From: Tetradesmus obliquus
Lineage: Eukaryota > Chlorophyta > Chlorophyceae > Sphaeropleales > Scenedesmaceae
Assembly (NCBI GenBank): GCA_030272155.1
Contig: CP126198.1
Location: 4,836,001-4,900,000 of the forward strand
Direction: 5' to 3'
DNA: 64,000 bases
This document shows, one piece after another, positions 6,739 through 62,557 of the stretch; the stretch's first letter is position 1, and each line of letters begins with the position of its first letter. The position numbers were made by a program, and so were the translations under genes. The notes under the pieces were generated by a model. The model did not search any database. It saw only the letters and a list, made by a program, of their open reading frames with translations, and had not been told where the DNA came from.

Positions 6739-9700
6739 CTAGCTGCCCGCAGCAAGCTTGCCCGCAGGCCCGACCGCTGCCGCGCCCGCGCCAGCACTCA
6801 ATGGCCGGCTGCTGCTGCCGCTGCGCTGCCGCTGCGCCGCAGCCAAGTTTGCAGCCACGCCAGCTGCCCCCAGCTTCGCCAGCAGCTCCCCGCCAGCCAC
6901 GCGGCCTAAGCTGCTGCTGCCAGAAGGCGAAGGCATGGAGCCAGAGGATCCAGCCACGCCTGCTGCAGCGATGGCGATGGGGTGGGCGTGTGAGCCGTGG
7001 TGGCTGCCCAGGCTGCTGGTGCGCATGCTGCCCCAGGACTGCCGGCTGAGCTCGCCGCTGTTGGCCCTGCTGCTGGAGCGGCTGTAGGAGATCCAGTTCC
7101 TGTTGCAGCGCAGGCAGCATGGACAGGCTTAGCATGTGCAGATACTGCACACATAAGATGCAGGATGATTTAGTGGAGGCATAGTGCATGCTGCTGGTCA
7201 TGCAGGCATGGATGGCCTTCAGGCACGCACCACCTGGGCCCAGCATCCCCACAGCGCCCATACACCATAACAAAAGAGCCTGGCAAGCTGCAACAGCCTG
7301 CACGCAGTCTGCATGATGAACGGCCATGCAGCCGTGCAGCTACTCACTCTGGTGGCAGCTCGCTGGGCTGCACGCCCATGTCTCGCAGCCTAAGGCCAAT
7401 GCCTTATCGTAGCAGCTGACACACAACTGAAGAAATGCTGATACATGACACACCCAGCCCACACACTCACTCTGGCGGCAGCTCGCTGGGCTGCAGGCCC
7501 ATGTCTCGCAGCGTGAGCTCAGCACACTAACACAGCAGCTTTTACATGAATCGCAAGGCCGAAACAACACAGAAATATAACAGGGGTAGCACCCTGCACA
7601 AAAGCACACACACTCACTCTGGCGGCAGCTCGCTGGGCTGCAGGCCCATGTCTCGCAGCGTGAGCCCGCGCGCCTCCAGCCGCGACTCCAGCGCCTTGTA
7701 GCAGCAGGTGAGCTGCTCCAGCTGCCGCTGCAGGCGGTTCACGATGCTCTCCTCCTCCATTTCCATCTGGTTCTCCAGCAGCACCTGCGCAGACAAACAT
7801 AGTGCATCACAAGAGCTGTCAGGAGTGAACCACAAAATGAGGGGCAATGCTGTTGCATGGAATGTCACACCCATGTGCTGGAGAGCCAGAGGGAGTTGCA
7901 GGAGGAGGAATGATTAACTCATTCCGCCTCCGGCAACTCCATCTGGCTCTCCAGCACCTGGGTGCGACAGTGCATGCAACAGCATTGCCGCATGCAGGAT
8001 GAGCCGATGATGTGCCGCGTGTTTGTGCATGTGGCATGAGCCACAGCAGGTGCTGAGCGCAGCAGGATGAAAGCAGGATGAAAGCAGAGCAGGTAAGTGG
8101 CTAAAGCCAGCAATGAGGGCGTAGCATTGCTTGGTGAGGCCTGTACAATTGCAGGTGCGCAAGCAGAAGCACCAGCAGCAGCAGCCCCGAAGCACATGTT
8201 GCAGCTGAGCTAACGGTAACATCATCCCAGGGTTAACGTGCCACTGCCCCTACCTTGTCCTTGTTCAGCTTGTCTACTGCTGCTGACAGCTCGCTGGTCT
8301 GGCGCTGCAGGTCTGTGCGCTCGCGCTGCAGCGTGGCCTTCTCTCCTGCAAGCTTCTCCAGCTGCTTCTGCAGCTTGTTCATGATGTACTCCTGCAGCAG
8401 CAGCAGCAGCAGCGGCAGTGGGGGCATCAGCAGCAGAACAAGCAAGGTCAGACTGACCACGGCTCAGACTGCTACACGGCACAATTAACCTGTCGAACAT
8501 GCACCGGCAGGCCACCGCCACTACATGATGGAAAAAAGGCTGTGTGTCAGACCGGTTTCCAAGCACAACTGCCTTGCGCCTGCTGCTGTCCACGGGGACA
8601 CTGCCAGCGCTGCTGCCACTGCGCAAAAATACCACATGCTACTGCAGGCTGCGCACACCGCTGCAAGTCTGTCGGCAGCTGCTGCTGCAGCTCCTGCGGC
8701 TTAACACCGCAGCTGCTCCAGACAGCCAGCCAGGCTCACCTGCTCTGCTTCCAGCTGGTTCTCCAGGTCCACCTTCTCCTTGTGCAGCTTGGCCTTCTCA
8801 TTTGAGAGCTGCTCCAGCTGCAGCAGCACAGCACATTATGCAGGACACCATCTACTGTCAACACCATTCAGGGCATTGTGCAGGTCAAGTCGCCGTGCAG
8901 CAAGATAGATGGCGTGGCTATCATCTATCTCAGCCTCAGCAGCTGCGCACATCCACTGCTGGACCAGGCCCTGCTGAGCTGCTTGCAGGAAGGCATTCCA
9001 TGCAGCACAGGCAGTGCAGGGGGGCTGCCAGTACAAGCCACCTGCTGCCATGTGTTTGCACACAATGCGGCAGGTGCGCATTGTTTCAGCTGATGAAATA
9101 CACGATGCCTGATGTCCTGCGCACCTGCTTGCACAGCTTGTTGACGACATACTCCTGCTCCGTCTCCAGCCTGCTTTCCAAGTCCACCTTTTCTTTTATC
9201 AGCTGCGGCACCATACATCCCATGCAGGCATCAGCAGCACACTGGTCAGGCACAGCAACTTTACTTCACTTTGCAGCACGCCCCAACAGGTGTAAGCAAC
9301 CACGAGAGTAACTGCATACCGTAGTGTGCAAGTGACCTTGAAACACAGAGCTAGACTGCTGCTGCTGCTCGATGCCACAGCGGAGCAGGTGGCTTAGCAG
9401 GTAGCAGATGCTGCCGCTGCTGCTGCCTGTATGAATCTGTTTGAAGCAACAGTAGTGGCTGGTCACCTTCTCTAGCTTCTTCTGCAGTGTGTTGGTGAGG
9501 AACTCCTCTTCCTGCTCCACCTGCACGAAGCAACACGAAAACACAGGCAGTTGAAAGAAGTGCCGCTGAGCCAGCTGTGGCACGTTGCACGGTGTTGCAC
9601 CATAGCTGGGAGACTTGGCTCATTTGGCTGGCAGGTGGATCAACAGCGGAAGCAAGGATACTGCGCTGTTGATACTTTGCTTGTGCATGCTGGTGGTCCG

Positions 9701-21218: not shown

Positions 21219-23345
21219 ATGCCTCCACGCGACGAGCCAGCAGATCAGCCAGGGGATGGCCAGCAGCAGCAGAAGAGCATAGCAGGCCTGCTGGACTCTT
21301 TGGCGCTAGCTCCAGTTGCACAGCCCAGTCGAAAGGACATCAAGGACAAGTATGCTTTCTGGGGGAGCCAACCAGTGATGCAGTTCAGCGACGAGGCCAA
21401 GGTAAGTAATGACACAGCAGAAGCAGTACCGTGTGCTGCAACGAGTGTGCGTCTGCAGCCAGCCCCTTGTGTAGCTGAAGAAGTGGCTATTGTGTGGCAA
21501 CCCCTCCGTTTAAGTGGATATCTGGTTTCAACCCTTAAAGCTTTGCCAGCACCTTCCTCCAAAAGCGAATGATGCATCACATGGAACTTTGTGACGGCAT
21601 GCATGGATTGGGCCAGTCAACCCTTAAAGCTTTGCCAGCACCTTCCTCCAAAAGTGAATGGTGCATCACATGGAACTTTGTGACGGCATGCATGGATTAG
21701 GCCAGTCAAGCAGCTTAGCTGCTTAGCCAGCATCTGCGAAAACAGCATGCCTGCATACGCAAGGAAAACGATGGGCATATGTTGTGTCTTGCAGGATGTT
21801 GAGGACGGACCCATAGATGCGCCAAAGACAGTGGAGGAAGTGCGCAAGGAGCCTTACACGCTGCCCAGCAGGTGAACAGCACATTTTGATCTCCACGGCA
21901 CGCTGAAAAGCCCATCAAGCACGCGTGTGCTGGTGCTAGCAGACAGCACCTTAACGCAGGCACATGCTTTCTGTAAAACAACAGCAGTCAGTGTAGCAGC
22001 TGCAAGGGATGGTGCGCAGCCGACACAGTTCAGCTTGCGCGAGCGTCTGGCAATACATGTGCCATCAGGCTGCCAAACAGCGGCGCTGAGCGCGCATGCA
22101 ATTCAGGTATTTTGCACCTCTGTGCCTTCATTCTTATTGCACTATGCACATGTGGCTGGCTTTCAACGCTGCTGCTGGTGTGCAGCAGCAGATGTTCAAT
22201 TGTGCTCATTTCAATCCAAAGCGCTGATGCCCTGTGCTATGCTCTAAAATAGGCCAACATCACGTGGCTGCTGCTGTTGCTGTGCTGCCTGCAGCTTTGT
22301 GTGGTGTGAGTGCAACATCAACGACCCACACGAAGTGCAGGAGGTGAGCCACAGCTCACCCTGCACATGGCAGCATAATCAAGAGGCTGTTGGTTTGCTG
22401 CTCCTGCTGTTGATAGTCCTGCTAGGCAGTAAATCAGTAGCAGATGCGTGTATGATGCTCCTGCAAGGAGACATGTACAAGCAGATGAGCATTGACCTGG
22501 GCATCCGAGAGCCTTCAGCCAGCTGTTAGTGATGTGGGGTTGGACAGTGGAGTTCCAGAAGATTGCTATGTTCCTGAAGCCTGGCATATGCAAAGCATCA
22601 CCATGTAGGTTAAATTCAGCAGCATCAAGTCCGTTCCCTATTGCGCTGCACAGGTGTACACGCTGCTGCACAATAACTACGTGGAGGATGATGACGCCAT
22701 GTTCAGGTGTGTGTACATGTGTGCGCCTAGCTTGCTTGCAGGACAGGCAGCAGGAGAAGCAGAGCTAGCAGCATGGCGGCAACAGCAGGGCTAGCAGCAT
22801 AGCAGCAGCAGGGCACCAGCAGAGCTAGCAGCAGGACAGCAACAGCAGGGCAAGCAGCAGCTTCAGCAGGGCAGCAGCAGCACCAGCTGCAGCAGCGCTA
22901 GCAGCGCCAGCAGCAGCAGGCACCAGCAGATCTAGCAGCATGGCAAGCAGCAGGACAGGCAGCAGCTTCAGCAGGGCAGCAGCAGCACCAGCGGTCACAC
23001 CATCAGCAGCATGGCAGCGTCAGTGCAGCCGTTGTTGTAGGGCGTCGCACTTTCTGTGCACGGGCTGGGCACAGCCAGGAAGGACATCTAGGTCCCTGCA
23101 GCTGGCGCACAGCAGCTGCGTCACCAGCACCCTGCGTTGTGCCTGGCTGCTGCTGTGCAGTTTTAACCACAGCCCCGAGTTCTGCCAGTGGGCTCATAGC
23201 AGACGCATACCAGCATCTGGTGTTACCGTTTGCTGCTGCTGCTGCTGCTGCTCCTGCTGCTGCTGCTGCTGTGCAGGTTCAACTACAGCGCCGAGTTCCT
23301 GTAGTGGGCACATAGCAGCCGCATTTGAGCATCTGGTGTAAACGT

Positions 23346-23385
<40 letters not shown>

Positions 23386-26300
23386 GCAGGTTCAACTACA
23401 GTCCGGAGTTCCTGCAGTGGGCGCTGCAGCCGCCCGGCTACCAGCGCGACTGGCACGTGGGCGTGCGCGTGAAGGGCAGCAACAAGCTGGTGGCTTTCAT
23501 CAGCGGCATCCCTGCCAGCATACGGGTCAGATTTTATAATGTGATTCCGTATGTAGTGTAGAGTACATTCAATTGATTGAGTACAGCTGATGGTCAAGAT
23601 CTTGGTGCAATGGATTGTGTACGGTAGCAGCTGGTGGCCTTCATCAGTGGCATACCAGCCAGCATACGGGTGAGCCGGTTGTGCTTTGAGTGCAGTAAAG
23701 CTGGTGGTCAAGTTCTTTGTGCAGTTTATTGTGTTCAGCAACAAGCTGGCGGCCTTCATCAGCGGCATCCCTGCCAGCATACGGGTGAGATTACTATTAT
23801 GCGATTCAGTATGTAGTGCAGAGTACATTGATTGACTGAGTACAGCTGATGGTCATGTTCTTGGTGCAGTGGATTGTGTACATTAGCAGCTGGTGGCCTT
23901 CATCAGCGGCATCCCAGCCAGCATACGGGTGAGCCAGTTGTGCTTTTGAGTGCAGTAAAGCTGGTGGTCAAGTTCTTTGTGCAGTGTATTGTGGTCAGTA
24001 GCAGCTGGTGGCCTTCATCAGCGGCATACCAGCCAGCATACGGGTGAGCGGCATGTAGTATAGAATACAGTGAATAGTGTCTAGTACATGGTTGCGCTAC
24101 ACTAAGTAAGTTGTGTACAGTAGCAGCTGGTGGCCTTCATTAGCGGCATCCCAACCAGCATACGGGTGAGCTGGCATGCAGTACAGCTGATGCTCAAGTT
24201 CTTGGTGTGGGGTATCGTGTTCAGTAGCAGCTGGTGGCCTTCATCAGCGGCATATGGGTGAGCAGCTATGCAGCAGTTTCCTAGCAGCTGCGGCAGCTGT
24301 GAGGCTGTGGCACTTGAAGGCAGTTGTTGTGGCTATGCTCTTTCTGCTGAGCAGAGGTCATCTTAAGATGGTCTCGGCACGAGACCAGGGCAACAGAGAC
24401 AGCAGCAGGTGCACTTGTTGCCTGAGGTTTTGCAACCGGCTACAGCAAGGCGCGAGGGCTACGGCCCAACTTCTACTGCTGCAAGTGACTCTGCTGCTGC
24501 TGCCGCTGCCGCTGCCGCCCCTGCTGCAGGCCAACGGCAAGCCTGTGCCTGCCGTTGAGATCAACTTCCTGTGCGTGCTCAAGAAGCTGCGCAGCAAGCG
24601 GCTGGCGCCAGTACTCATCAAGGTGGGTGACAGCTGGCAGCAGCAGCAGCAGCAGCAGCAAAGACTGCAAGCAGCGCAGGTGTCAGCATTAGCAAGCGGC
24701 TGGCGCCAGTGCTCGGCAAGGTGGGCGACAGCTGGCAGCAGCAACAGCCACAGCAGCAGCTACTGCAAGCAGCCCAGATATGAGCATCAGCAAGCGGCTG
24801 GCGCCAGTGCTCATCAAGGTGGGTGACAGCTGGCACAGCTGGCAGCAGCAGCAGCAGCAGTGAGTGCGAGCCAAACTCTTCCTTGTATCACCTTACATTT
24901 TCCTGGTGTCTTCCTTGTAACTTGTTCTCACGTTGGGTTTGCTTGTGTCTGGCCTCGCAGGAGATCACGCGGCGCGTGAACCTGCGTGGCATCTGGCAGG
25001 CGGCTTACACGGCGGGCGTGGTGCTGCCGCGGCCGGTGTGCGGCTGCCGCTACTGGCACCGCAGCCTCAACCCCAAGAAGCTCATCGAAGTGCGCTTCAG
25101 CAGCCTGCAGGTGCGGCAATGTGTCAGGTGGCGCGGCCATTTCACAGGTGCCAGCTGAGTGACAGGAACTTGCAGAACAATTGCAGCTGCTTTCAAATCT
25201 CGTCTTCTGGATCTGTGATGTGTCACGCTTGTGTTGCCTGCAGCCGCGCATGACCATGGCGCCGGCGCGCACCATCAAGCTGTACCGCCCGCATGCACGA
25301 GACGGCTGACCCTCATCGTTGTTGGTAAAATTTCTGCTGACTATGATCGTTGGGTTGCTGCCTGCAGCCGCGCATGACCATGGCCCGCACCATCAAGCTG
25401 CACCAGCTGCAAGCATGCGGCTGCTGATTTCCTTCTCTCAATTCAAACTTTCTGCTGATTCCTGTGGGTTGCTGCCTGAAGCCGCGCATGACCATGGCGC
25501 GCACCATCAAGCTGTACAGGCTGCCCGCAAGCACAACCACGCCGGGGCTGCGGCCCATGGAGGCCCGCGACACGGCAGCGGTAACAGAGCTGCTCAACGG
25601 CCACCTGGCGCAGTTCAAGCTCACGCAGCACTTCTCAGAAGATGAGGTTGCGCACTGGTGAGCGCTAGGCCTTTTGATGGTCAAAAGTGGCAAACTTGAC
25701 AGATATTACCAGGGCGCGCAGAGTGTGTATGTGTGACGTCAGCTGGTGACCAAGTCAGGTGCTGATTGTATCTGCAGAGTTGCATTGTACGTGCCGGGTT
25801 GGTGCAGCGTAAAGCTCCCAGCGCAACCAGGGTGCTGGCAGTTGCGCTGCTCAATGGCCACCTGGCGCAGTTCAAGCTCACGCAGCACTTCTCCGAGGAT
25901 GAGGTGGCGCACTGGTGAGCGAGCGCAGCATTGGCGGGATGTTGACTGATTTTGTGACTGATGTGTGATAGGTTTTGCGAGTGTGTGATTTGGCGTACGA
26001 TCTGTGTCTCTGGTGTGACGTCAGCCGATCATGCAGCAACAGTCTGGTGCAGCCGGCGCTGCTCGGTAAGGCTGGCGTCTCCAACTGTTGAGCAACGCCT
26101 CGTCTCTGCTGTTCATGTGTGTGCATTTTGCCGCAGGTTCCTGCCGCAGCCTCTGGTGGTTGACACATATGTAGTGGACAGCCAGCTGGCACAGCAGCAG
26201 CAGCAGCAGCAGTCGTCAGAAGCGCAGCAGCTGCCCGCAGGAGCAGCAGACGCAGCAGCACCCAGCAGCAGCAGCAGCAGCAGCAACGGCGCAGGCAGCA

Positions 26301-36357: not shown

Positions 36358-36464
36358 GCACTTCCGCGCTGCAGCAGGAGTTTGGTGCAGGCTGTTTGTC
36401 TGTCCGGCTGCAGCTGCCTGCGCAGCTCTTTGAGATGTCGTATAGCAGAGGCAGCGCCTCACTG

Positions 36465-37570: not shown

Positions 37571-37651
37571 TATTATATGCATGGCATGGCATCTGTTGTG
37601 TTGGTGACAGGCTCAGGACTGTCACCAACACAACATGCCATGCATATAATA
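37571..37651. repeat. imperfect inverted repeat / hairpin
   Basis: Left arm 37571-37610 (tattatatgcatggcatggc, atctgttgtgttggtgacag) and right arm 37619-37651 pair almost fully, apart from a bulge of about 7 nt in the left arm. The loop is gctcagga. The size and shape resemble a small-RNA precursor or a MITE relic. Confidence 0.85.
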
Positions 37652-38804: not shown

Positions 38805-38838
38805 GCAGCAGCTGTCGTTCGCGAACGACAGCTGCTGC
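38805..38838. repeat. perfect 34-bp palindrome
   Basis: Each half is 17 nt, centred between 38821 and 38822 (core gtcgttcgcgaacgac), flanked by CAG/CTG-rich DNA. Confidence 0.9.
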
Positions 38839-41776: not shown

Positions 41777-41829
41777 GTGTAAAGATGGACATTGTAGCAT
41801 GGAAAAGCAAAGCTGCACACCTTCAAGCA
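41777..41829 (+). repeat. dispersed repeat copy, pair of 984-1036
   Basis: Direct-orientation match to 984-1036, sharing gtgtaaagatgga, tagcatg, aaagctgc and caccttcaagca. See that entry. Confidence 0.5.
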
Positions 41830-42153
41830 AAGAGTGTGCAGTATGATATCATTGCTATGCTTGTGTTACCAGCACTATCAGTTTCAAGCCAGCAACTTTC
41901 GCTGATAAGCTCAAATGTCACTGACATTCCCTGAGGGCTGCACAGATCTGCTGCCCTCTAGAGGGCTATTCCAAACCCAAGGTCCGCTGGGGCTGCCAGT
42001 CCTATATAGTATATACAGCTGTAGCAGCAAGCGCTCGCAGCTCGTGCATCGCGGCATAGCACGCTGTGTTGCCTTGCTGTACAGCAGCAACACATGTGGT
42101 GACCAATGGTCCTTGGGCACTGGGTGCTTTGTGCCCTTGACTTTCAAAAAGCG

Positions 42154-42245
42154 TTATGACACGCTCCAGTGCGCCCCTTGCATGTCGCCTGGCACCTGGC
42201 GGTGCTTGGGTGCTGGCCGGGCCTCGTGCACTGCTGCAACTGCCA
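42154..42245 (-). repeat. complete second copy of the PITHD1 terminal exon
   Basis: Just downstream of the stop at 42266, the coding part of exon 6 is repeated: VHEARPAPKHRQVPGDMQGA, then HWSVS and stop, against VYEARPVPKDHQVPGDMQGS in the gene. The copy is still open in the right frame. A shorter third piece lies at about 42098-42153. Confidence 0.9.
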
Positions 42246-42265
42246 CCTTTAAAATTCAAAAGGCG

Positions 42266-45319: not shown

Positions 45320-46479
45320 ATGCTGATGCTGCTGCTGCTGATGCTGATGCTGCTGCTGCTGCTCCATGGCATGCCGCATCCCTTCCAGAATCGAGGCAGC
45401 TGAGCAGAACCAACAACACTGAGTGTGTATTGCCTGAAATCATGCATGCTGCTTTTTGCTCGACTCTAGCTGCACTCCTGTGATTTATCACGTGCTCCAT
45501 TTCTTCTTCTGAGTGACCCTGCGTGCATCTGCAATGTATGCCTTCCTGCAACTGCTGCACACCTCAGCAGCTGACAGTAGGAAAGCTGCTGCCATGGACG
45601 CGAGACCAGCTGCTGAAAGATAGGCCTGAGCTCTTCATGAAGGGCGACTCAGTGTGAGCAAATACGTGCCAGCAGGGCACAGTTATACAATCAAACCAGC
45701 ATGCCATAAGCACACATGCAGCCACGAGATTGCAGAACAGCAGTTGCCCAATGATGGCTCACTGCCCAAAGCAAACTGCACAGCACAGCAAGATACTGCA
45801 AAAGGTTGCTGTATGTGTTTTCTTGGTGAACAGCCTGCGTTGCACGGCCGTCTGCACGCAAGTGGACTAGCGTGTCAAAGCGTGTGCAGCAACAGCGCAG
45901 CGCATCAACACAGCCCAACATCACCATGCATAGTCACAGCAGGCCATGTGTCAACACAGCACAGCACAACGGCACCCTGCCACACATCAAAACAGCACAG
46001 CAGAGCGCAGCACAGCACAGCACAGCTCAGCACAGCACAGCTCAGCACAGCACAGCACAGCACAGCACAGCACAGCACAGCACAGCACAGCACAGCACAG
46101 CACAGCACAGCACAGCACAGCACAGCAAAACACAGCACAGCACAGCACAGCAAAACACATCACTACAGCACAGCCCTGTGCTGACATGCCGCCATGCTGC
46201 TGCCCTTGCAGGCGGCCAGGCATCTTGGTGCTGATCAATGACTGCGACTGGGAGCTCAGGTGTGGTGGTGTGAAGGCAGCAGCAGCAGCAGCAGTTGTAC
46301 TTGATCAGTTGCACGAAGATGCGTGACCGCATTCGCGGGCAGCAGCGCGGCAGCTGACTGGCAGCGTTGGTGGTGGTGATGCTGTTGACGTGATTCTCCC
46401 GATGCTTTGGTGCCGGCAATTTTGCCGCTGTGATGCTTTATATAGGCCTTGACTCAGCAACATTTTCGTGCTGCTGCTG

Positions 46480-46606: not shown

Positions 46607-48632
46607 GCAGCGTGCTACGGCTATGTTATTGCTGTGGCTTGATTAGTGATGGTTTGATGATGATGACGGCGGCTGAGCAGCAGCTGCACGCAACATTGGC
46701 AGCTGCATTTACTCAGATCGGCGGCAGCAGCACTGTCCCCATTGTGGCACATCTGCAGCCTGTTGGACTTGAGAAATCTTGTTGCGCAGCATTGCAGTGC
46801 TGACAGCGCCTGCATATCTAGCTAGATATAAGGGTTGGCTTTCTATTATTAGCTGGCTGATGTGTGTCGGGCATGGACTGGGTGTTGTGCCTGCAGAAGC
46901 AACCCCACGCAGTGAACATGCAGCAGTGGCCAGGTCAACATATGTGGGGCGGCTGTTGCGTACTTGCTGAAAGGAGTGTTGACGGTCGCTCTTGGTTGAA
47001 GGGTGCTGACAATGCACGCCCTGACGCGCAAACACACACGTTGCATCAACCATCAAGGATGCAGAGAGTTGGGGCGTGCTGTCACAGAACGGTTCTGTCA
47101 GGGACCGCTGTCATGTCGTGAGATTAAATGCCGCCGGCGTGATTCCCCTTGGTGCCGTTGCAGCAGGGTACTGCGTACGCCCACACACTCAGTGCGACCA
47201 CATGCGCAAGGCCAGCAGTTGTGTGCCTTGCTGTTTGCAGCTTTTACGGCAGCGTCATCGCTGTCAATGTGGTGACCACTATGTTGCATGGCCGTGCTGT
47301 TTTTATGCCACAGCATTGCATGTGGCCCAATCAACATTCCGTATCCTGCTGGCATCACGGGTGTGCTGCGAGGACAGCAGCTGCAGTTGCAGCAATTGTG
47401 TGGCTGCCCGTTGCAAAATTCATCAGAGGCGCCCCAAGCCGTGAGTTTGAGCCTCAAACGTGGTCACAGTGCGCCCTCAATGGTGGTCACAGTGCGCCCT
47501 CAATGATGTGGTCACAGTGCGCCCTCAATGATGTGGTCACAGTGCGCCCTCAATGATGTGGTCACAGTGCGCCCTCAATGATGTGGTCACAGCATGCGGC
47601 GTGCTGGCTGGCTTGTGTTGTCACCCACCGGCGGCTTTGTTGCCGTTTGCCGGATTGAATTGTGACATTGTTACACGCCAATTGAGTGACAGCCGGCTGC
47701 AGCCTGCTACTTGGTGTTGCAAGCAGTGCAACAAAGCATTGCAAGCCGGCTAGAAAGCTGCTGATTGCTGGCTTGTTTGGCAACCTGCAATTCCTTGTAA
47801 CCTGGCGGTGACTCATGATGCTCACTGCTGACAGGCATGCCCCGTCATGCGGGTTTGAAGCCCACTAATTTGCATGAGCCATGCTACAGCTCAGCCAAGT
47901 TTGGTGCCCCGCACCCATCATGCCATGATGGGTGGCCCATCTCATATCCATTATCTAGTTGAAGGCACAACTGGCGAGTACAGGCAGCTGGTTGTTGATA
48001 AGGGGAAAGCATCAACATGATTGACGTTACATTTGGTAGGCACAAGTACACTGGTAGCCAGAAGAAGTATCACAGTGCCATTGCCAATGAAGCACGGGAC
48101 AACACCAGCTACTGCCAATAGGTGCAGCAAAGCACCACATCACACAGCCTGCTGTGACACCCTTCTGATGAAGACCAGTCGACAGACAACTTCACCCTTG
48201 CTAGTTGCTAGAATGCAGTCCGTTCTTGCTCTTCTGCACCTTGCGCAGAGGATCAAAAGGCAGCCAAAAACAAAGCCGTCATGGTGTATCCTTGCAGTGC
48301 ACGCACACCTATCAGCCGAAACAGACAGGCACGGCACCGACTGGCAAGGTGAGCGCCATGCTTGATCCTATCAATACGGCAGCATACGATGTGCTGCACT
48401 GCTCAAACCAAAGGCAGCACAGTTGCTAGGCACTGCGTAATGTTGACTGCTGCGCAGCAGCCCCAGTGACACTCCAGCCGCACGCCGCAAGCCCACAGCT
48501 GCTGCTGTTGCCTTTGAAAGCGCAGGCACTGCTGCAGTGCTTGGCCAAGCAGCCTTGGCTCCACGCATGGCTGCCGCAGCAGCTGTGTCGCATGCAGCTG
48601 CAGCAGCTTGGAAGCAGAGCACAGTGCGCTGA
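46607..48632. other. intergenic region between URM1 and the V-ATPase subunit c gene (convergent)
   Basis: Both flanking genes end here. Apart from a minisatellite at 47459-47592 no supported feature is present; frames are short and without domains. A small palindrome (ccatcatgccatgatgg) lies near 47926-47942. Confidence 0.4.
47459..47592. repeat. 25-bp minisatellite, about 5-6 copies
   Basis: The unit gtggtcacagtgcgccctca plus atgat is repeated head to tail. The first interval lacks a few bases and the last copy is incomplete. The units are otherwise nearly identical, indicating recent expansion. Confidence 0.95.
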
Positions 48633-51427: not shown

Positions 51428-54400
51428 ATGGCGCGGGGGCTGCTGCTTGGCAGCCTGCTGGCGACCCTGCTGATCGCAACAGTCAAGGCGGAGGCAGTAC
51501 TCAACCTGGATGGCATGCCCTGGACACTAACAAACGGCAACGGGTCAATCTCGCTGACTACAAACATTCCGGCTTATCCGCTGGAGGTGCTGCGCTCTAA
51601 TGGGGTCATTGGCGATCCTCTGTACAGGTACACCAACCACCACTTTTGACTGCACGCAATAGAGAAGCACGCCCATAGCCACGAGCGCACCCCTACCGTG
51701 CAGCGGTTTGTTTCTGCTGTAATGCGGTTCTTTGCGTGTCAATGCGCTGTCAGCCACCACCAAGTTGACAGCAGTGACAGCACTTTGCGTGGTGCACTGC
51801 ATGTGGGCTATTGTGCTGCTGCTGCTGCTGCGTCTGCTCCTGCTGCTGCGTATCTGTTGTAACATCAAAATAATTGTATAGCCACTAGCCATTAGCCAGG
51901 ACAGCTCTTCATGCTTGCTTGTAAGCGCACACAGGTACCCATGTGCCACGCCACGGCACCACCATGCATCCTCAACCGCCAACCGACACTCACACTGCTG
52001 CTGCCGCTGCTGCTGCTGCTGCTGCTGCTGCCACAGGTACGGCGAGCAGGACAGCCGCTGGGTGGCCTTCCAAGAGTGGACCTTCAGCGTGACCTTCTCA
52101 GCTGAAGATGCAGCCAAGCTGGCAGCACAGGAGCAGGCTGTGCTGTACCTAGGAGGTGTCGATACCTTTGGCACCATCTCCGTCAACGGCCAGACAGTGC
52201 TGCAGACCAACAACTTTCACAGGTGATGATAATGCGACGGAATCAGCATGGCGCATAGCGTGTGCTTGTGGCCTAGACACATGAGCAGTATCATGTACGC
52301 ACAGTTTTGGAGCTGACACAGCAAGCATGAAGCTTTTAGTTGCAGTGCCGCTGGCCTCAATCTTTGCCTGTGCACCCCTGAACACCACCCCGCTGCTGCT
52401 ATCCATCCTGTCTCCAACTGTCCTGCAGGCACTGGACTGTGCCTAGAGAGTCTTTCCTGGACGCTTGCTTGCAGTGTGAACTCCTATCTTGCCTGTACAT
52501 GAACCTCCCTGCTGCTGTGCTTGCATCTTACGTGTGGTGTAAATGTAAACCTCTGCTTGCAGGCACTGGACGGTGCCCATCAAGTCTTTCCTGGATGCCT
52601 CAGGGCCCAACACCCTCACCATCAGCATCGCCCCTGCCTACAACACCACGCTTGAAGAGCAGGCCAAGTACCCCTACTTCATCCCAACACTCTACGTGAG
52701 CGCAGCAGCAGCAGCAACAGCAGCAATGCGGTTCAATTGCGGCAACAGGGTGTACCAACAGCTGGTGTGCATTTATGCATGCATGCGCCTACTGGATGTC
52801 TGGTGCAGGATGATTTACCATGGACTGACTGCCACGCTGCAGCAGCAAACAGCAGTGTGAGCGGTAGCGTGGCGGGCCCATGTCTGAGCCCTTGTGGCAC
52901 TAGATGCCCAATGTTCATACAGCCGGTGTTCAACAACCTGACCTGCAAGCACAGCTGACCGCAACCGTCCACAGCAGCCACGGCTTTATGAGACATAGCC
53001 TGTCTGCCACAAACTTGCTCCCAAAGTGCAAAAGTCATGCTGCACTGTAGCCCAAACCTTATAGCACATTTGCTGCTGCTGCTGCATGCAGAATACCGGC
53101 TCCATCGGCGCCTACAACTTTGCCAGGAAGCCCGCTTTCGACTTTGGCTGGTGCGTGCTGCACAGCACAGTTCAGCTGAATGGCAGCCAGCACAGAGCAG
53201 AACTCAGTTCGCACCAAGTGCCATGCAGCACAGCCCGGCCCAGCTGTCCTGCAGCTACCTCGAAGCAGCTTTTCCTGCAGCCAGCTAAAAAGTCCTGCAG
53301 CACCGCCTGCATTAGCTGCCCTGCAGCCAGCTGCGAGCAGCTTTCTTGCAGCCAGCTGCGAGCAACAGTCAATGGCCAGCAGCTAAGACAAAATGGCAGC
53401 TGTGCTTTGTTGTCCGGTAAGTCGCCGCAGCCTGCAGGGGATTGCCAAGCAGCCGTGGCAGTTGCATGTGCTACGGTGAGGCTGCCAAAATAGGGTTCAA
53501 GCGCTCAGCATACAGCAGCGTCTGACCGTCCTCTTGCTGCTGCTGCTGCTGCTGCTGTTGCTGCTGCCACCTACCCGGCAACTGCTGGTGGCCACTGCCA
53601 CCTCTTTTCCTTGCTGCCTGGCGCCAATAGGGACTGGTGAGTGTGTCTGTAATCACAGCCGCATGCATGCCTTGGCAGCTGCCCTGCCTGTTTGGAGCCA
53701 GCTCCATTGTTTGCTGCACGCAAACCCCTTGTGTTCCTGCAAAAAGCGTCCATGTGTGCATTCTTTCCCTAGCTCTTGCCGAGTGATGTGCCTTGCAAAG
53801 CATTCTGCGTGTTTGTGTGTGTTGCTCCTTGCCTGCAGGGGGCCTGCCTTTGCTGCCTCAGGCATCCACGGCACCGTCAAGATCATCGCCTTCAGCAAGC
53901 CCACACTGGCAGGTAAGCTTCATCATATTTCCATGTAAGCTACAGGCAGGTAGGCTTGAGCACAGCAGCAGTGTCCAGGCAGAGTGTGCCGTTCCTGCAA
54001 GCTGTAGCTTTGAAAGAGCATTGCCTTCAGCAAGCCCACCCTGGCAGGTGAGCAACACTCATAGAGTCAAATATACCTAAGTGTTTCTGCTTTTGCATCA
54101 GAGCAGACTCGACTGTTCCTGCAAGAAGTAGCTTGTGGGCAATTGCACACGTCTTCGCCTTGAGTAAGCCCACGCTGGCAGGCAGGGCGCGGCACAGCAG
54201 CAGCAGCGGCCAGAGCAGAGGGTGCTGTTCCTGCAGGCTGTGTCATCTTCCTGTAAATCTCCTTATGAATGTTGGCAAGTGTCCAACGCAGAAGTATGAT
54301 CCGCGCCTCTGCTCTGCCTCCCCTTTGCAGGCGCCTACCTTGCGCAGAGCCACGATGACGAGTTCTTCACCCTCAAGGTGACCAGCCAGTTCCTGACACC

Positions 54401-57400
54401 CGACTCTGGCGGCTACGGCACGCTGCGCCTGGCACTACCAGAGCTGAACGTCACAGTGGAGCAGGAAGTGGAGTTCCTGGCTGGGCGTCAGAACTCTGCA
54501 GGTGGGTCTGCAGTACCTAGTGTCTAAGTTTGGGTGGCTTAGGATGGGTGACTGGGGTGCGGCTGGCATTGCAGCAGAAATCGGGCTGGTGCGTATAAAG
54601 CACAATACTAAGGTTTTAGATATGCACTGCAATTGGGCGGCTACGGCACGCTGCGCCTGGCACTACCAGAGCTGAATATTACAGTGCAGCAAGAAGTGGA
54701 GTTCCTGGCTGGGCGCCAGAACTCTGCAGGTGGGTCTGCAGTACCTAGTGTCTAAGTTTGAGTGGCTTAGGATGGGTGACTGGGGTGCGGCTGGCATTGC
54801 AGCAGAAATCGGGCTGGTGCGTATAAAGCACAATACTAAGGTTTTAGATATGCACTGCAATTGGGCGGCTACGGCACGCTGCGCCTGGCACTACCAGAGC
54901 TGAATTTTACAGTGCAGCAAGAAGTGGAGTTCCTGGCTGGGCGCCAGAACTCTGCAGGTGGGTGTACAGCATCTGGGTTTGGGTGGCTTAGGGTGGGTTA
55001 CTGGGGTGCGGCTGGCATTGCGGCAGAACTCAGCAGGCGGCCTGGTGCGTATCAAGCACATTATTAGGTTTGGGATGAGAATTGGAATTGGGCGGCTACG
55101 GCACGCTGCGCCTGGCACTACCAGAGCTGAACATCACTGTTGAGCAAGAAGTGGAGTTCCTTGCGGGGCGGCAAAACTCTGCAGGTGGGCTGACTGGTGT
55201 GTTGAAGCCTGGTGGTAGGTCGATTGCTGTGAGGCTGTCGAACATGTCCACCATGCTGCTGCCTGCCTGTGTGTTGCCAGCCGCTGAGCCGACGTGTTTG
55301 AGGATGCCACCAGCATCCAGTTGCCGTGGTCTGACCTAAATGCGCTGCTGCTGCCTGCCTGTCTGCTGCTGCTGCCGCTGCTGTGCAGACCTGTTTGAGG
55401 CAGCCACGTCCATCCAGGTGCCCCGCGCTGACGTGGAGCTGTGGTGGCCGGCTGGCGGCAACTACGGCAGCCACAAGTGAGTGGCAACAGCTGATCTACA
55501 TCATTGTCTGTACTTGCTTCTTTGCGTCGCAGCACCCTTGCACTTGGTCAGCAAGTTGCAGAGCAAAACATAAGTTTAAGATGCCGGCGGCAATCACGGC
55601 AGCCACAAGTGCGTGGGGACAGGTAGAGGGGACAGCCAAGCCACATCATGTACAGTAGTGAAAAAGTATCAAGTACAACGTGACAATCGATGTTGGGCCA
55701 TTTCGATTCTAGTGCGGCACCTTGGCCCATGCCTCACACCTGCCACTTTAGGAACCGCTGTCGAACCTAACCCTATCACGCCTGCCTCATTCCCTGCTGC
55801 TGCTGCAGGCTGTACAATGTGACAATCGAGTTCGAGCCGCTCGGTTCCTGGTGCGGCACCTTGGCCCAAGGCACACCCCGGCCCCGCAGGCCCAGCACCG
55901 GCTACAGCTTCCTTGATCAGCTGCTGGGCATGCCAGGGGCCCCTGGTGCTGCTTCTGGCGTTGACTTCAACCTGGATGTGCAGGACGGCCTGCGCGCTTC
56001 ATTGAACATCGGCGACCTGTTTGACTTCAACATCCAGGTAAGCAGGTTGCTTTCTGTTTGTGACAGTTTGAAGGAATTGCGGTTTTGGGGTTTGGATTTA
56101 GGGTTTGGGTTTGAGCCAATCACAGGCCCAGCACTGGCTACAGCTTCCTTGATCAGCTGCTGGGCATGCCAGGGTTCCCTGGTGCTGCCTCGGGCGTTGA
56201 CTTCAACCTGGATGTGCAGGACGGCCTGCGCGCATCACTCAACATCGGCGACCTGTTTGACTTCAACATGCAGGTAAGAGATGTGTCTCTGTTTGTAACT
56301 GTTCGATTGAATTGAGGTTTTGGGTTTGGGTTTAGGGTTTGGGGTGTTGCCAAGCGCAGGCCCAGCACTGGCTACAGCTTCCTTGATCAGCTGCTTGGCA
56401 TGCCAGGGTCCCCTGGTGCCGCTTCGGGCGTTGACTTCAACCTGGATGTGCAGGACGGCCTGCGCGCTTCATTGAACACCGGCGACCTCTTCGACTTTAA
56501 CATCCAGGTAAGCAGGTGTATGTTTGTAGTTTTGATAACACTTGAGGTTCTAGGGTTTGGTTGTAAGGTTTGGGAACTGGCTACAGCTTCCTTGATCAGC
56601 TGCTGGGCATGCCAGGGGCCCCTGGTGCTGCCTCAGGGGTTGACTTCAACCTGGATGTGCAGGACGACGGCCTGCGCGCATCTCTGAACATCGGCGACCT
56701 GTTCGACTTTAACATCCAGGTAAGCAGGTGTCATTTTTGGACACATTGAAGTGAGTTTTGGGGTTTGGATTTAGGGTTTGGGTTTGAGCCAAGCGCAGGC
56801 CCAGCACTGGCTACAGCTTCCTTGATCAGCTGCTGGGCATGCCAGGGGCCCCTGGTGCTGCCTCAGGGGTTGACTTCAACCTGGATGTGCAGGACGGCCT
56901 GCGCGCTTCATTGAACATCGGCGACCTGTTTGACTTCAACATCCAGGTCAGTGACGTCTGGCTTTCTGGGCGTAGTTGGGATCTCATGGTGAAGTTCGCG
57001 GTGAAGTGTGGTAGCGCACTGAAAGATCGCGATTAGATTTGCAGCTTGATGACCTGGCATCCATGTTCCACAGCTGTCTGGCTCACATATGGCTGTACAT
57101 GTACATCTGCCTCCTATGCTGCTGCTACACCCTGTCGCAGATCGGCCAGGGTGCTAACGGCCGCCCCGGCGCAGCTGGCAGCAGCAACGCTGGCGCAGAC
57201 AGCAGCAGCAGCAGCAGCGGCACTGCTGGTGCCGTGGCCAGCAGCGCGGAGTGCAGCTACGTGAAGAAGCGCATCGGCTTCAGGACTGTGGAGCTGGTGA
57301 CTGACCCTCTCGACAAGGCGGTGCAGGTGGGCTGTCTGGATTTTTTCTGGCTTGTGTGGGGGGTGCGTTTGGTCACAACAGATGAGGCTACGTGGGAAAG

Positions 57401-60400
57401 CGTCTTGGTTTCAGGATTGTAGAGCAACCAGAACCCCTAGGCCACCTCTATGCACTTTCCGCTGCTGCTGCTGCAGGACCTGTTTGGTGACAAGCCCGGG
57501 TTCAACTTCAGCGAGAACCCCAAGATCATCGACAGCATCCTGTTCAAGCAGGAGGGCTGGCAGTGGGCGCTGAGCGACAACGGCCAGTGGAAGCGCTTCG
57601 AGGGCAACAACTCAGCGGTGCGAGCAAGGGTTCAGCAGCTGCTTGCTAAGACTTGAGTGGTTGTCCGTTGAGCTTGAGTGGATGTGACTAGGCTCTGAGT
57701 GAGATGCGCCCATCTCCCTCAAGGGGACCAACAGTCATCCCCCTCAGCATCCTGCACCGTCCTGTTGACTTGACCACACATTCTTGTTGCTGCTGCTGCT
57801 GATGCTGCTGCTGCCGCACAGGTGGCTGGCGCCGTGCAGGAGAGCTACTATTTCAAGGTCAACGGCATGCCCATCTTCCTCAAGGGAGCAAACGTCATCC
57901 CCCTGAGCATCCTGCACCGTCCTGTTAACATCACACCAAATTGTTGTTGCTGCTGCTGCTGCCGCACCAGGTGGCTGGCGCTGTCCAGGAGAGCTACTAC
58001 TTCAAGGTTAACGGCGTGCCCATCTTCCTCAAGGGAGCCAACGTCATCCCCCTGAGCATCCTGCCCTCTAATGTGACGGCTGAGCTCACGCAGTCCATCC
58101 TGAGCGCTGCAGTAGAATCACACCAGAACCTGCTGCGTGTTTGGGGCGGCGGCTCCTACCATGTGAGTGTTTTTTGTCTGCACTTTGTTATTGTTTGTTG
58201 GTGGCAGAACCTTGTGACGGCTGAGCTCACGCAGTCCATCCTGAGCGCTGCCGTGGAGTCGCACCAGAATCTGCTGCGTGTGTGGGGCGGCGGCAGCTAC
58301 CACGTGAGTGAGCTTGTGTGCACTCTGTTAGTGTTTGTTGGTGTCAGAACCTTGTGACGGCTGAGCTCACGCAGTCCATCCTGAGCGCTGCAGTGGAATC
58401 ACACCAGAACCTGCTGCGCGTGTGGGGCGGCAGCTCCTACCACATGAGTTGCTGGCTACATCACCAGAGACTGTTGCTGGCGGCACCTTGCGTCATCCGC
58501 TATTGTCGGTCAGATGGGATAGGGCATGGCTTGCGTGCTTGCAGGAAAATTTTAAGCGAAATATATCGACATCTGATGCTCCCAGCCAGTGTTGATGCCG
58601 ACACTTCAAGTCTGGCTGCTGCTGCTGCTCACCACCGCAGAGCCAGGAGTTTTACGATTTCTGCGATGAGCACGGCATCATGGTGTGGCAGGACGCCATG
58701 TTCAGTGCATCTGAAGTCAGGTTGTTGCTGCTGCTGCTGCTGCTGCTGCTGTGTTGACAACCGCAGAGCCAGGAGTTTTACGACTTCTGCGATGAGCACG
58801 GCATCATGGTGTGGCAGGACGCCATGCTCACTGCATCTGAAATCAGGTTGCTGCTGCTGCTGCTGTGTTGACAACCGCAGAGCCAGGAGTTTTACGACTT
58901 CTGTGACGAGCACGGCATCATGGTCTGGCAGGACGCCATGTTTGGCGGCTCCCACTACCCGCGCAACCCGGAGTGGCTCGCAAACATCGAGGAGGAGATC
59001 ACGCAGCAGGTTAGTAACATATTGTTGGTAACATGTTGTTACTGGCTACTACTCCGTACTCCCAGCCAGGGTGCTTGGCGATTTGCATGAAGCCATCTTA
59101 CAGCATCAAACCTGCGTCACAAAGTATTGTTTTACGGCACCTAAACCTTGTGTCATATGACATGTTATGTCATGTAACAGGCTGAGCGTCTGAGCTGGCA
59201 CCCCAGCATCCTGGCGTGGTGTGGCAACAACGAGCTGGAGCTGAGCTACGAGTAGGCCAACAGCACATCTGCCATCGTATGTTATTGACATGTTATTTGT
59301 GTTATGTAACAGGCTGAGCGTCTGAGCTGGCACCCAAGCATCCTGGCGTGGTGTGGCAACAACGAGCTGGAGCTGAGCTACGAGTGGGCCAACAGCACAT
59401 CTGCCATCGTATGTTATTGACATGTTATTTGTGTTATGTAACAGGCTGAGCGTTTGAGCTGGCACCCAAGCATCCTGGCGTGGTGTGGCAACAACGAGCT
59501 GGAGCTGAGCTACGAGTGGGCCAACAACACCTTTATCCGCTCCAACCGCAACATGTTTGTGAACGACTACATGGCTAACATCAAGACGCTGCGCCGCGCC
59601 ATCAAGAAGGTGAGCAGGGCAGCTTTGGTTTGTTTAAAACACCGAACTGCGTTGCGTTGGTTGGGCTTGTGGTGTCGGGGTGGTGCAGAGGCTGTGGTGC
59701 CGCGTGTTTGCCAGTCTGCACTTTGCATGCACGCCACCCACCAGCGCACAAACTGCTTACGCATCTGCTGTGCCACATGTCAACACAACGATCCGCCCGC
59801 AGGTCAACCCCTCCAACATCTTCATCAGCAGCAGTCCAACCAAGGGCACCATTGTCGATGATGATGAGGAGTTCTTGCTGCGCTGGGGCTGGATCGGCGA
59901 CACTCGCTACGGCTCCGTGCACCACTACGACTACATGAGCGACTGCGAGAACTTCAGGAGCTACCCCACCGCGAAGTTCGTCACCGAGTTTGGTGAGTTC
60001 TAGTAAGGCCATGTGAACTTCAGCGTGCACTCAACTCAGGCCGCAGAGCAATACTCTTGAATGCATATGCACTTGTGCGTTCTCTTGTTGGGGTCTTATT
60101 ATGCGGCTCCGGCATTGGCAGCTGTTACTCTTGCAGGTTGATTCAACTACCTGCATCTAGACCTGACGTCCTGCCAATGACGACAACCGCTTTTTTGAGG
60201 GCTTTCACCAAACTGAGCTCGTGCTATCTGTACATGGTGCTGCTGCCACACCGCAGGCTGGCAGTCTTATCCCATGCCTGAGACGTATGCTGCAGCCATG
60301 CAGCCAGAGGTTGATTGGGGCGTCGGCAACCCCATGAACGAGTTCCGCAACCGCCGCACAGATGTCACGCCACAGTTCCTGTACCAGTACGGCCTGCATT

Positions 60401-62557
60401 TCAAACTGCCCAAGGACTGGAACCCCGAGGTGCGTTGTATTATGTGGTATTTTGTTGTTTTTTTCAACACATCTTGGTTCCGTTGTATAACAGCGCCATT
60501 TATGTGACTTCCAATGTGGTCAGCTTAGACTTCACCTTGCAGAGCACGATTTAGCATGCCGACCTCGAACGAGGTGTAGGCCGACATCATGTACACGTTA
60601 GTGACATGTTACTTGCGTGTGTTACTTTTGCAGGACCCCCAGGAGCGCATGAAGCGCTTCCGCAGCTACCTGTGGATCGGCCACATGCAGCACGCCCGCT
60701 GCTACGAGACCTCACTCAACTTCTGGAGGCGCCTGCGCAGCCACGCCACGTGAGTGAGCTGTTGGTAACATGTTAATGACATTTTTTTTACTACAGGCTG
60801 TTGTGATGCGTCAGGTGGTGTGTTACATCTGGCGCCTGCGCAGCCACGCCGCGTGAGTAGGCTGTTATCAACATGTTACACAGTCACGCTTGACAGGAGG
60901 AGTTTGGGTATGTGATGCTTCTGGAAAGGTTTGCGCAGCCACCTTACGCTTGTCAGCTGACAAATCTCTGCTCTCTGCACGCTGCATGTGGAGCGATGCT
61001 TGTCTGCACTGCGCTGCACTGCACTGCGGTGTGTAGCTCATCAGGTTGTTTCATGTGCTGCTGCTGCTGCTGCCCTGCAGGAGCCTGACCATGGGTGTGA
61101 TGTACTGGCAGCTGAACGACATCTGGCAGGGAGCCTCATGGAGCAGCCTGGACTACGCAGGTGAGGGCACTGTGAAGGCGTTGTTTGTTTCGTTGGTTGT
61201 TACTGCAGCACAGCTCGCAATTGTGCCGCTGTTACAGTGTTTGTGCAAGCAGCATGTGCATATCTTGCCATGGTGATCCGACACTGCTTGTGTCGTTTTG
61301 CATGAGTCATCAATGAAGCAGGCAGTGCGCTGCATGCACCAGCCCCACCTGATTTGCAGTGTATGTTGCAGATCTCAAACTGCTGCCATCACTGGCACCT
61401 CCGCTGAGTCTCTTTGACTTTGCTGCCGTTTTGTGCCACACGCAGGCCGCTGGAAGCCCGTGCACTATGCCGTCAAGCGCGCCTACGCCCCCATTGTCAT
61501 CCAGGCCATCCTTGACCAGTCAACCGTTGACATCTTCATTGTCAGCGATCTGGTCAACGCCACGTCAGCAAATGTACAGCTCACCCTTGTGTCACTCAAT
61601 GACGCAGCCGCCAGCTGCTCCGCCGCCACCGTGAACTCCCAGCGCGTGGCAAAGTTCAGCGTGGAAGTTCCCGGTCTGTTCGCGTCCAAGGTGAAGTCGA
61701 TCCCAGTGGCTGATCTGCTGGCAATGCGCCCGGGATGCACAGCAACCACTTGCTTCCTTACCGCCACTGCTACTGCCGAGGGAGCGGCATCAACAGAAGC
61801 GCAGCTGTGGCTAGTTCCATTCAAGGCCATCGAGTTTTCAGACCCTGAACTTCGTATTGAATCAGCAGAGCAGGTGTCACCCGGTACCGTGGAAATCAAA
61901 GTGACAGCTCAGCGGCCTGCTGCGCTGGTGCTAGTGAGCGAGCTGGCTCCACTGTCAGGTCATTACAATGACAACGCATTCTCCATCAATCCCTGCGAGC
62001 CCCGCGTGCTTTCCTTCACATCTCATAAGGGCGAGATTGCACCAGCTGATTTGAAGGAGGGTGCATTCTATGTCGAGTCATTGTTCAACCACAGCAGCTG
62101 GTCAGATCTGCCAGTTTCTGGCGCTGCTGCTGGCAGCAGCCCCAACACTAACACTGGAGCAGCAGCTGGCACCACACCCGCAGCAGCAGCAGCAGCAGGG
62201 AGCAACCCGCTGCCGCCGGTGGTGCACGGGTCCATTGCTCAGATGGTGGCAGCAGTAGAGAGGGAGGAGGAGTCACCAGAAGAGGCAAAGGGCGCTGCTG
62301 CTGCTGCCGCTGCTACTGCTGCTGCGCCGCCTCACCCGGTTGAGCATCGTGTGTTTGTGGCACCTGGCCAGACGCTTGAGCAGGTCAAGCAGCAGCAGCC
62401 AGCCGCCACAACTGCAGGGACGCCAGCAACAGCAGCAGCTGTAGAGACACCAGCTGCAACAGCAGCAGCTGGCACGCCAGCAGCAGCAGCAGAGAAGCCT
62501 GCTGGCGCTGCAGCTGATACTGAGAAGCCCCAAGCCCCTGTGGAGACGCAGACCTAA
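51428..62557 (+). CDS. secreted or vacuolar beta-mannosidase (GH2), 18 exons
   Basis: Exons 51428-51627, 52037-52222, 52563-52695, 53092-53150, 53839-53912, 54331-54501, 55389-55476, 55809-56037, 57141-57326, 57477-57617, 57971-58162, 58881-59009, 59445-59609, 59803-59992, 60257-60429, 60634-60749, 61081-61160, 61446-62557, giving 1207 residues. A signal peptide ([20 protein letters not shown]) precedes the sugar-binding domain ([25 protein letters not shown]-like [12 protein letters not shown]), the sandwich domain ([12 protein letters not shown]), and the barrel ([101 protein letters not shown]). By family alignment the acid/base is about Glu614 (NNELE) and the nucleophile about Glu713 (TEFGWQ). 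It removes terminal beta-mannose from glycans. Exon 9 adds a Ser/Gly linker, and a tail of about 150 residues is Ala/Pro/Thr-rich. Longer than animal enzymes (about 880 residues). Confidence 0.93.
52429..52480 (+). repeat. upstream copy of the start of beta-mannosidase exon 3
   Basis: ctgcag followed by [12 protein letters not shown] resembles the true exon start at 52563 ([12 protein letters not shown]). The copy diverges after about 40 nt. Confidence 0.8.
54004..54182 (+). repeat. copies of the end of beta-mannosidase exon 5
   Basis: The exon-5 3' end (AFSKPTLAG plus donor, true end 53912) recurs at about 54020-54047 with GTGAGC, and at 54152-54182 with ggcaggcagg in place of the donor. 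Confidence 0.75.
54624..55188 (+). repeat. three downstream copies of the 3' part of beta-mannosidase exon 6
   Basis: The exon-6 segment [20 protein letters not shown] to GRQNSAG plus GTGGG donor (true end 54501) is repeated, ending at about 54729, 54957 and 55185. The first two copies are separated by 228 bp of almost identical spacer (gtgactggggtgcggctggc, aagcacaatactaaggtttt); the last is more diverged. Confidence 0.92.
56126..56946 (+). repeat. four downstream copies of the 3' part of beta-mannosidase exon 8
   Basis: The segment [20 protein letters not shown] to DLFDFNIQ plus GTAAG or GTCAG donor (true end 56037) recurs with ends at about 56273, 56507, 56719 and 56946. The spacers share ggtttgggtttagggtttgg. 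Most copies begin after a cgcag or cacag acceptor, but copy length from that acceptor is not a multiple of 3 (148 nt for the first). The third copy lacks the first few bases and has an extra codon (DVQDDG). Confidence 0.92.
57720..58443 (+). repeat. copies of both ends of beta-mannosidase exon 11
   Basis: Upstream, the start [15 protein letters not shown] is copied at 57822 with its own acceptor, and a still shorter piece (cagtcatccccct...) at 57725-57770. Downstream, the end [20 protein letters not shown] to GGGSYH is copied at 58208-58303 (acceptor gtggcag, donor GTGAGT, 96 nt, in frame) and at 58348-58443, where the donor position reads ATGAGT. Confidence 0.9.
58641..58880 (+). repeat. two upstream copies of the start of beta-mannosidase exon 12
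   Basis: accgcag followed by [20 protein letters not shown] is present at 58641 and 58767 before the true exon at 58881. The spacings are 126 and 114 nt. Each copy ends after about 70 nt in gcatctgaa, then a CTG run, and read-through meets a stop (TGTTGA). Confidence 0.92.
59181..59408 (+). repeat. two complete cassette-like copies of the start of beta-mannosidase exon 13
   Basis: Copies at 59181-59276 and 59313-59408 each have a gtaacag acceptor, 96 nt in phase 0 and a GTATGT donor; the true exon starts at 59445. The period is exactly 132 bp. They carry the catalytic motif [12 protein letters not shown]. The first copy has TAG in place of the Trp codon after SYE; the second is fully open. 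Confidence 0.92.
60829..60853 (+). repeat. fragment copy of the end of beta-mannosidase exon 16
   Basis: WRLRSHA plus a gtgag donor, true end 60749, is repeated about 105 bp downstream as a short fragment. Confidence 0.7.

Follow-up and report, generated by a model that had tools for sequence, protein, structure and literature searches.

Local copies of exon ends and their splice sites in introns of the alga Tetradesmus obliquus

Genes and tandem copies of the window

The window, a stretch of 64,000 nucleotides from contig 8 of Tetradesmus obliquus (bases 4836001-4900000), carries a CCDC6-like gene and genes for NMT, OGT, PITHD1 and beta-mannosidase. Family membership was confirmed in PDB and Pfam for OGT and in Pfam for NMT, PITH and the beta-mannosidase Ig domains; the CCDC6-like identity is weak (a DUF2046 match below the Pfam cut-off). 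The initial annotation had described, in the introns of these genes, extra and mutually diverged copies of the adjoining exon ends together with their splice sites. The genes it named do carry clusters found by self-alignment of the window, and the copies differ from each other (Table 1).

Table 1. Tandem copies in the window, with positions counted from its first base
Position	Strand	Feature	Remarks
2056-2343	.	144-bp tandem duplication, intron-only, in a weakly scored predicted gene	counter-example to junction copies
4769-5078	.	Tandem duplication outside predicted genes	counter-example; lag 174
7342-7667	-	CCDC6-like exon end + donor, three copies	self-BLAST lags 123 and 270; minus-strand reading
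21528-21735	+	NMT intron 1, tandem duplication entirely intronic	counter-example; lag 89, 90.8%; classed intron-only
23146-23433	+	NMT exon start + acceptor, about 2.4 copies	stop codon in one copy
23477-24254	+	NMT exon end (13-residue peptide) + donor, seven copies	last copy truncated
24592-24871	+	NMT exon end + donor, three copies	lags 98, 196
25232-25534	+	NMT exon start + acceptor, three copies	lags 124, 238
25589-25921	+	NMT exon end + donor, two copies	four synonymous differences; intron flanks not recognisably alike
29938-30153	+	OGT exon start + acceptor, two copies	
30314-30500	+	OGT exon end + donor, two copies	
32579-32854	+	OGT exon start + acceptor, two copies	period 159, a multiple of three; codon differences 9 synonymous, 2 non-synonymous
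33614-33861	+	OGT exon start + acceptor, two copies	
33877-34629	+	OGT exon end + donor, about six copies	counted by eye
34808-34942	+	OGT intron, intron-only tandem duplication	counter-example; lag 61
35074-35650	+	OGT exon start + acceptor, about 4.5 copies or more	
36223-36605	+	Copy of the OGT last exon including its in-frame stop codon; that end lacks a splice junction	95.6% identical over 135 nt
42143-42356	-	PITHD1 last exon copied through stop codon into 3' flank	lag 112; from gene model and sequence
42640-42880	-	Decayed acceptor copies upstream of a PITHD1 exon start	approximate limits; by eye only
47452-47592	.	25-bp minisatellite	counted intron-only; 98% matches over 47460-47592
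53879-54063	+	Beta-mannosidase exon end + donor, two copies	
54408-55189	+	Beta-mannosidase exon end + donor, four copies	inner spacers alike, terminal flank not
55254-55422	+	Beta-mannosidase exon start + acceptor, two copies	
55673-55883	+	Beta-mannosidase exon start, two copies	stop codon in one
55885-56957	+	Beta-mannosidase exon end + donor, five copies	copy 5 mosaic-like (copies 4 + 1)
57708-58064	+	Beta-mannosidase exon start + acceptor, three copies	
58072-58449	+	Beta-mannosidase exon end + donor, three copies	GT lost in third; best match with codon differences 14 synonymous, 1 non-synonymous
58615-58942	+	Beta-mannosidase exon start + acceptor, three copies	
59158-59530	+	Beta-mannosidase exon start + acceptor, three copies	in-frame TAG in first (by eye)
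60728-60878	+	Beta-mannosidase exon end + donor, two copies	

The fifth copy of the five-copy beta-mannosidase array (56799-56946) differs from copy 1 at four sites, none of them beyond base 70, and from copy 4 at five sites, all after base 107, plus an extra codon. Such a mosaic is a sign of recombination between copies. A Ser/Ala-rich coding stretch of trinucleotide repeats in the same gene (57169-57222) has about 40 other matches in the genome. In the stop-codon copies, homology ends by eye at the stop in OGT and about 11 nt beyond it in PITHD1. The OGT exon was taken as the last one by eye, and the Pfam Glyco_transf_41 match reaches 542 of 543. Both last-exon copies (OGT 36223-36605 and PITHD1 42143-42356) are possible alternative last exons. 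Other repeats of the window are an ACAGC pentamer array of 37 units (45992-46174), a dispersed 60-bp pair, 88.5% identical and about 41 kb apart (976-1036 and 41770-41829), and near-palindromic inverted self-matches at 7843-7989, 34784-34961, 37570-37652 and 38800-38843, which are the only inverted matches listed.

Alongside the window we sampled four 50-kb blocks on contigs 1, 3, 5 and 11, regions never seen in the initial annotation, so that 264 kb of the 104.66-Mb genome (17 contigs, 56% G+C) were covered. Gene models came from a self-trained ab initio gene finder built in-house, which returned 46 genes, 416 exons and 370 introns (median intron 239); some of its frames look wrong and in places it called spare copies as exons. 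Local direct-repeat clusters, defined as self-BLAST matches within 1.5 kb, numbered 29 in the window and 19, 10, 19 and 30 in the blocks on contigs 1, 3, 5 and 11, respectively, a total of 107. The habit, described earlier as genome-wide-looking, recurs in all five regions, the four previously unread blocks included. One example is an MLO-family gene of block 4 (L022:2400-4950, 42.4-43.95 kb of the block), in which exon-end copies lie on both sides of one exon and a copy encodes nearly the same peptide with conservative changes; together with a neighbouring large gene it is the most array-rich of that block. The MLO and COX15 families were also checked in Pfam or PDB.

Excess of copies at exon ends

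Copies were scored in 36-nt windows as local direct matches of at least 31/36, after low-complexity windows had been dropped from the counts and from the profile below. In the four unread blocks, counting exons of 36 nt or longer, a direct copy lies near 29/271 exon ends vs 2/262 intron flanks (p = 1.9e-7); the same test within the window gave 30/151 vs 11/134 (p = 0.004). Classified by position, copies were found for 39/209 windows at the donor end of exons, 35/213 at the acceptor start and 21/631 in the exon middle, and for 11/268 post-donor, 16/208 pre-acceptor, 65/1296 mid-intron and 51/1550 intergenic windows. Repeats were not removed from these figures by position, in which pre-acceptor windows are copied in 7.7% of cases, so that they stand at half the rate of exons instead of one tenth. 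After de-duplication, by which repeated windows within about 600 bp were dropped (as they also were in the two tests on the unread blocks and on the window), exons of at least 100 nt gave 21/133 vs 2/132 on the donor side and 21/136 vs 2/102 on the acceptor side.

The edge of this excess is sharp. For exons of at least 240 nt the copy rate peaks at 14% between 12 and 24 nt inside the exon, is 1/79 (1.3%) at +12 and 0/75 at +24 on the intron side, and rises again to 5-10% at +84 to +108, which is the site of the copy. Orientation is direct throughout, and inverted copies of exon-end windows were absent at a threshold of at least 27/36 from all sampled regions. The copies are also placed consistently, on the intron side in 41/46 cases; among one-sided cases (n = 37) the donor-type copies lie downstream in 22/22 and the acceptor-type upstream in 13/15.

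At the protein level, 14-residue exon-end peptides (501 kept of 556, 55 being dropped) recur in the flanking intron at 48/501 junctions at a score fraction of at least 0.4; the rate is 0.2% for other introns and 0.4% for the antisense strand. A hidden reserve of copies recognisable as peptide only was considered and disfavoured, the peptide matches being mostly alike in DNA too. At a threshold of 29/36, one or more intron-side copies accompany 55 of the 345 testable junctions. The contrast previously drawn between array-rich and array-free genes is not significant: the 93 arrays in 352 introns of the 32 modelled genes with at least three introns are not over-dispersed (p = 0.28), and array-free genes match the expectation from their intron number.

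Clusters away from splice junctions

That the copied units always include a splice junction, as had been claimed, does not hold, since up to 27 of the 107 clusters are intron-only or intergenic. By class there are 62 junction clusters (70 with exon/intron pairs), 12 intron-only, 15 intergenic, 15 exon-only (or 7) and 3 at gene ends, and random placement of period-length units on the collapsed sequence expects 31.4, 24.1, 25.7, 22.2 and 3.6, respectively. The 27 are an upper bound because a few look like junction copies in missed genes, for example those at 19096 in block 1 and at 20152 in block 4. Median minimum lags are 129 for junction, 98.5 for intron-only and 119 for intergenic clusters, and range from 98 to 134 bp across classes when exon clusters are included. 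Of 29 gene ends tested, two are copied on the stop side (29/36 or better). The edge that the copies have in common is the end of the coding sequence.

Plain neutral tandem duplication, with exonic units purged, faster decay in introns and nothing more, would account for the tolerance of junction-spanning units and for part of the bias. We disfavour it as improbable, because the ratio of junction to intron-only clusters is 70:12 (0.85), vs 0.72 expected with a twofold detection advantage (p = 0.004), and because a simulation of duplication, purging and decay, run for the donor side with simple rates, yields an exon-end to intron-start ratio of 1.36, whereas 42:4 was observed, counted on both sides. 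As the exon bias is not reproduced by the simulation, a border-specific copying mechanism remains a live rival.

Splice sites and codons of the copies

The splice dinucleotides are mostly kept in the copies (GT in 41/50 donor copies, AG in 35/40 acceptor copies), and in 11 intron copies all 14 residues are identical. Both observations, together with the synonymous bias described below, are what would be seen if the copies were in use, as alternative or mutually exclusive partial exons or as alternative last exons of nearly the same peptide, with selection keeping both; judged by eye, in-frame joining would be possible for the OGT copy at 33614 and for both last-exon copies (OGT, PITHD1). We nevertheless consider use of the copies an unlikely explanation, given that the period is a multiple of three in just 29/76 pairs, that 29/76 contain a stop or frameshift, and that the opposite splice site is no commoner at the inner boundary of the copies than in controls. 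Tested on the one-sided matches alone (37 kept), such a site scores above 4 in 14% of donor-type copies (n = 22; control positions, 33%) and in 8% of acceptor-type copies (n = 13; control positions, 16%). Nine predicted internal exons of at least 60 nt lie wholly within a copied unit, and 2/370 introns fit a gain by tandem duplication (an intron as long as the period, with equivalent offsets of its two sites). Because the inner boundary is unenriched and so few introns fit, the copies are generally neither alternative exons nor new introns, although single cases may be. Alternative mini-exons were accordingly disfavoured as a general reading and intron gains of the Rogers type as an account of the bulk, although a few introns may belong to that kind.

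Differences between copies fall preferentially on third codon positions. In 76 clusters, mismatches at positions 1, 2 and 3 number 184, 157 and 394, a third-position share of 0.54 vs 0.44 expected when one copy is functional and the other free; the fit puts the free fraction at 0.29 (likelihood ratio 25.9). Pairs with both copies modelled as exons are counted here, and pairs with short exon parts were left out of these and of the period counts. In the 64 window-based pairs, from which near-duplicates were removed and some of which are modelled as exons, the counts are 45, 36 and 114 (ratio 15.9, significant). For the 31 copies not modelled as exons they are 23, 20 and 48 (ratio 2.6, bias not significant; fitted dead fraction 0.30, interval 0.15-0.56). 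These 31 divide into 22 copies at least 32/36 alike, with 8, 3 and 29 mismatches (about 72% third), and nine that are 29-31/36 alike, with 15, 17 and 19 and no third-position bias; thus, the more alike the copies, the more synonymous their differences. Saturation of silent sites was disfavoured (expected mismatch at saturation 0.516).

Likeness limited to exons, with synonymous differences, is also the expectation for two haplotypes, and pieces of the other haplotype could have been left in the consensus where the haplotypes stop aligning. A related strain has been described as likely diploid with alternate haplotype contigs, in a work that also mentions a haplotype of S. obliquus UTEX 3031 (PMC7955037). 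Such an assembly artefact seems to us a remote explanation, however, as 45/107 clusters hold more than one match pair, arrays reach five to seven copies, the copies are mosaic and partly decayed, the 264 kb contain no N, and the four contigs checked for length are 5.2-11.1 Mb long.

Flanks and spacers

In two-copy arrays, intron-flank homology on the same diagonal has a median of 16.5 vs 12 on the donor side (p = 0.003) and 27.5 vs 12 on the acceptor side (p = 1e-4); among 18 pairs on each side, 28% (donor) and 50% (acceptor) lie above the 95% point of the controls. Residual homology of this kind hints that the units at first reached deeper into the intron. Some arrays are homologous over the full period. 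On the donor side flank similarity does not rise with exon identity, so the likeness of the exons cannot serve to date the unit. In arrays of at least three copies, inner spacers exceed the random 95% point more often than the terminal flank does (63% vs 35%, p = 3e-4), an asymmetry present on the donor side (58% vs 16%) and absent on the acceptor side (62% vs 59%). On 58 match sides without full-period homology, the homology runs a median of 6.5 nt past the junction (matches with identity below 85% or lag above 350 left out), and pairs of high identity (at least 92%) with unrelated-looking spacers exist.

A template switch or repair-mediated duplication that places an exon end and a few splice-site bases about 100 bp into the flanking intron would produce the sharp edge directly, and equally the short homology past the junction and the highly alike pairs with unrelated-looking spacers; the copying might stop at the coding border because, for instance, diverged chromosome copies cease to be homologous there. 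Against such one-sided copying, to which we give a smaller though appreciable probability, stand the residual flank homology of part of the pairs and the lack of inverted copies, some of which free templated insertion should give. Two spacers searched against the whole genome also had no source elsewhere, and one of them holds a further decayed copy. Among 45 spacers compared with the 264 kb, few matches were found, largely repeat-like. Dispersed introner-like or transposon spacers were therefore disfavoured, the searched spacers being local. Paralogues elsewhere were likewise disfavoured as a source for three arrays, which in genome searches matched nowhere else, one repeat-rich stretch aside.

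Origin of the copies

Over one-sided copying we tentatively prefer, with confidence that falls short of even, duplication of units born with an intron part, followed by exchange limited to the exon part. Short direct tandem duplications, with units mostly of about 110-150 bp, would arise throughout the genome, and those in coding exons would mostly be lost to selection. A unit spanning a boundary would be tolerated because an intact reading path remains; the spare copy would have its own splice site, would sit inside the intron or behind the stop codon, and is probably hidden by splicing. Its intron-derived part would drift until unrecognisable, and its exon-derived part would be kept alike by repeated gene conversion or unequal crossing-over with the functional coding sequence, and possibly also with the other, diverged chromosome copy of a probably diploid alga. 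With the intron part decaying and the exon part preserved, today's remnant would be trimmed to the coding boundary. Unequal exchange would enlarge some pairs to arrays of up to seven.

Some observations strain this preferred history. Exchange with decay of dead copies predicts about 44% of differences at third positions, vs the roughly 72% of the most similar unpredicted copies, an excess calling for diverged functional alleles as partners in the exchange, or else for some use of the copies. Neither of the two main readings accounts fully for the synonymous bias unless a template both functional and diverged took part, for instance the other chromosome copy. In many cases the intron flanks are unalignable from about +7, and silent divergence between copies is near 0.1-0.2; the two agree poorly, unless exchange is much younger than the duplication. 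Arrays lacking flank homology would look the same under copying of the exon end only.

The earlier proposal of one shared process by which introns grow gains support from the similar periods, direct orientation and local placement that recur across the sampled blocks. As for its further suggestion that this process is aimed at exon-intron borders, the exon bias is real, and targeting of the border itself is not shown, in view of the intron-only and intergenic arrays, the stop-codon copies and the residual flank homology. A bolder combination, which we regard as rather unlikely, is that introns, at about one in six junctions, act as local stores of alternative exon-end versions of functional quality. 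One-sided copying that stops at the coding border would have supplied these versions, and exchange would link them to the working exon and to the other chromosome copy.

If the account given here is true, it amounts to a genome-scale and directly countable route of intron growth (55/345 testable junctions), the mechanism of which is testable by comparing two haplotypes or strains. It also cautions that, in genomes of this sort, spare copies will be taken for exons by ab initio gene prediction.

Comparison with known systems

Tandem exon duplication and mutually exclusive exons also place extra exon-like copies with similar peptides in introns, as is the case here; most of the present copies, in contrast, are one-sided fragments with no splice-site enrichment on the inner side. 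Concerted evolution of tandem repeats gives mosaic copies in which the coding part is alike and the non-coding part diverged. A mosaic copy and the same division between coding and non-coding parts are seen here, but the units are parts of single exons, and such units would number tens of thousands if the sampled density holds across the genome (an extrapolation).

At the level of titles and abstract openings, and with most subscription journals outside the scope of the search, we found no description of exon-end copies filling introns genome-wide. A second T. obliquus assembly (GCA_030272055.1) has 17 contigs and 100.30 Mb (PMC12571836), and the words 'intron', 'exon' and 'tandem' are absent from the main text of that report. 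The nearest known kinds are tandem-duplication intron gain and repair-mediated local duplication. In the former, exon sequence is duplicated and splicing hides it, as for ATP2A1 and the potato RdRp (PMC4974935, in the part available); PMC3488318, likewise available in part, also treats it. In both, a short stretch of exon is duplicated in tandem and splicing would remove the harm; they differ in that the introns here pre-exist and grow, with 2/370 fitting the pattern of gain. Repair-mediated duplications by capture of proximal DNA have been described with a discussion of homologous-chromosome templates (Pace et al., 2009, PMC2671141), in a work whose accessible part sets tandem duplications aside. 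They share with the present copies the local copying of nearby sequence; the copies in T. obliquus differ in having direct orientation only, a typical spacing of 110-150 bp and a concentration at coding borders.
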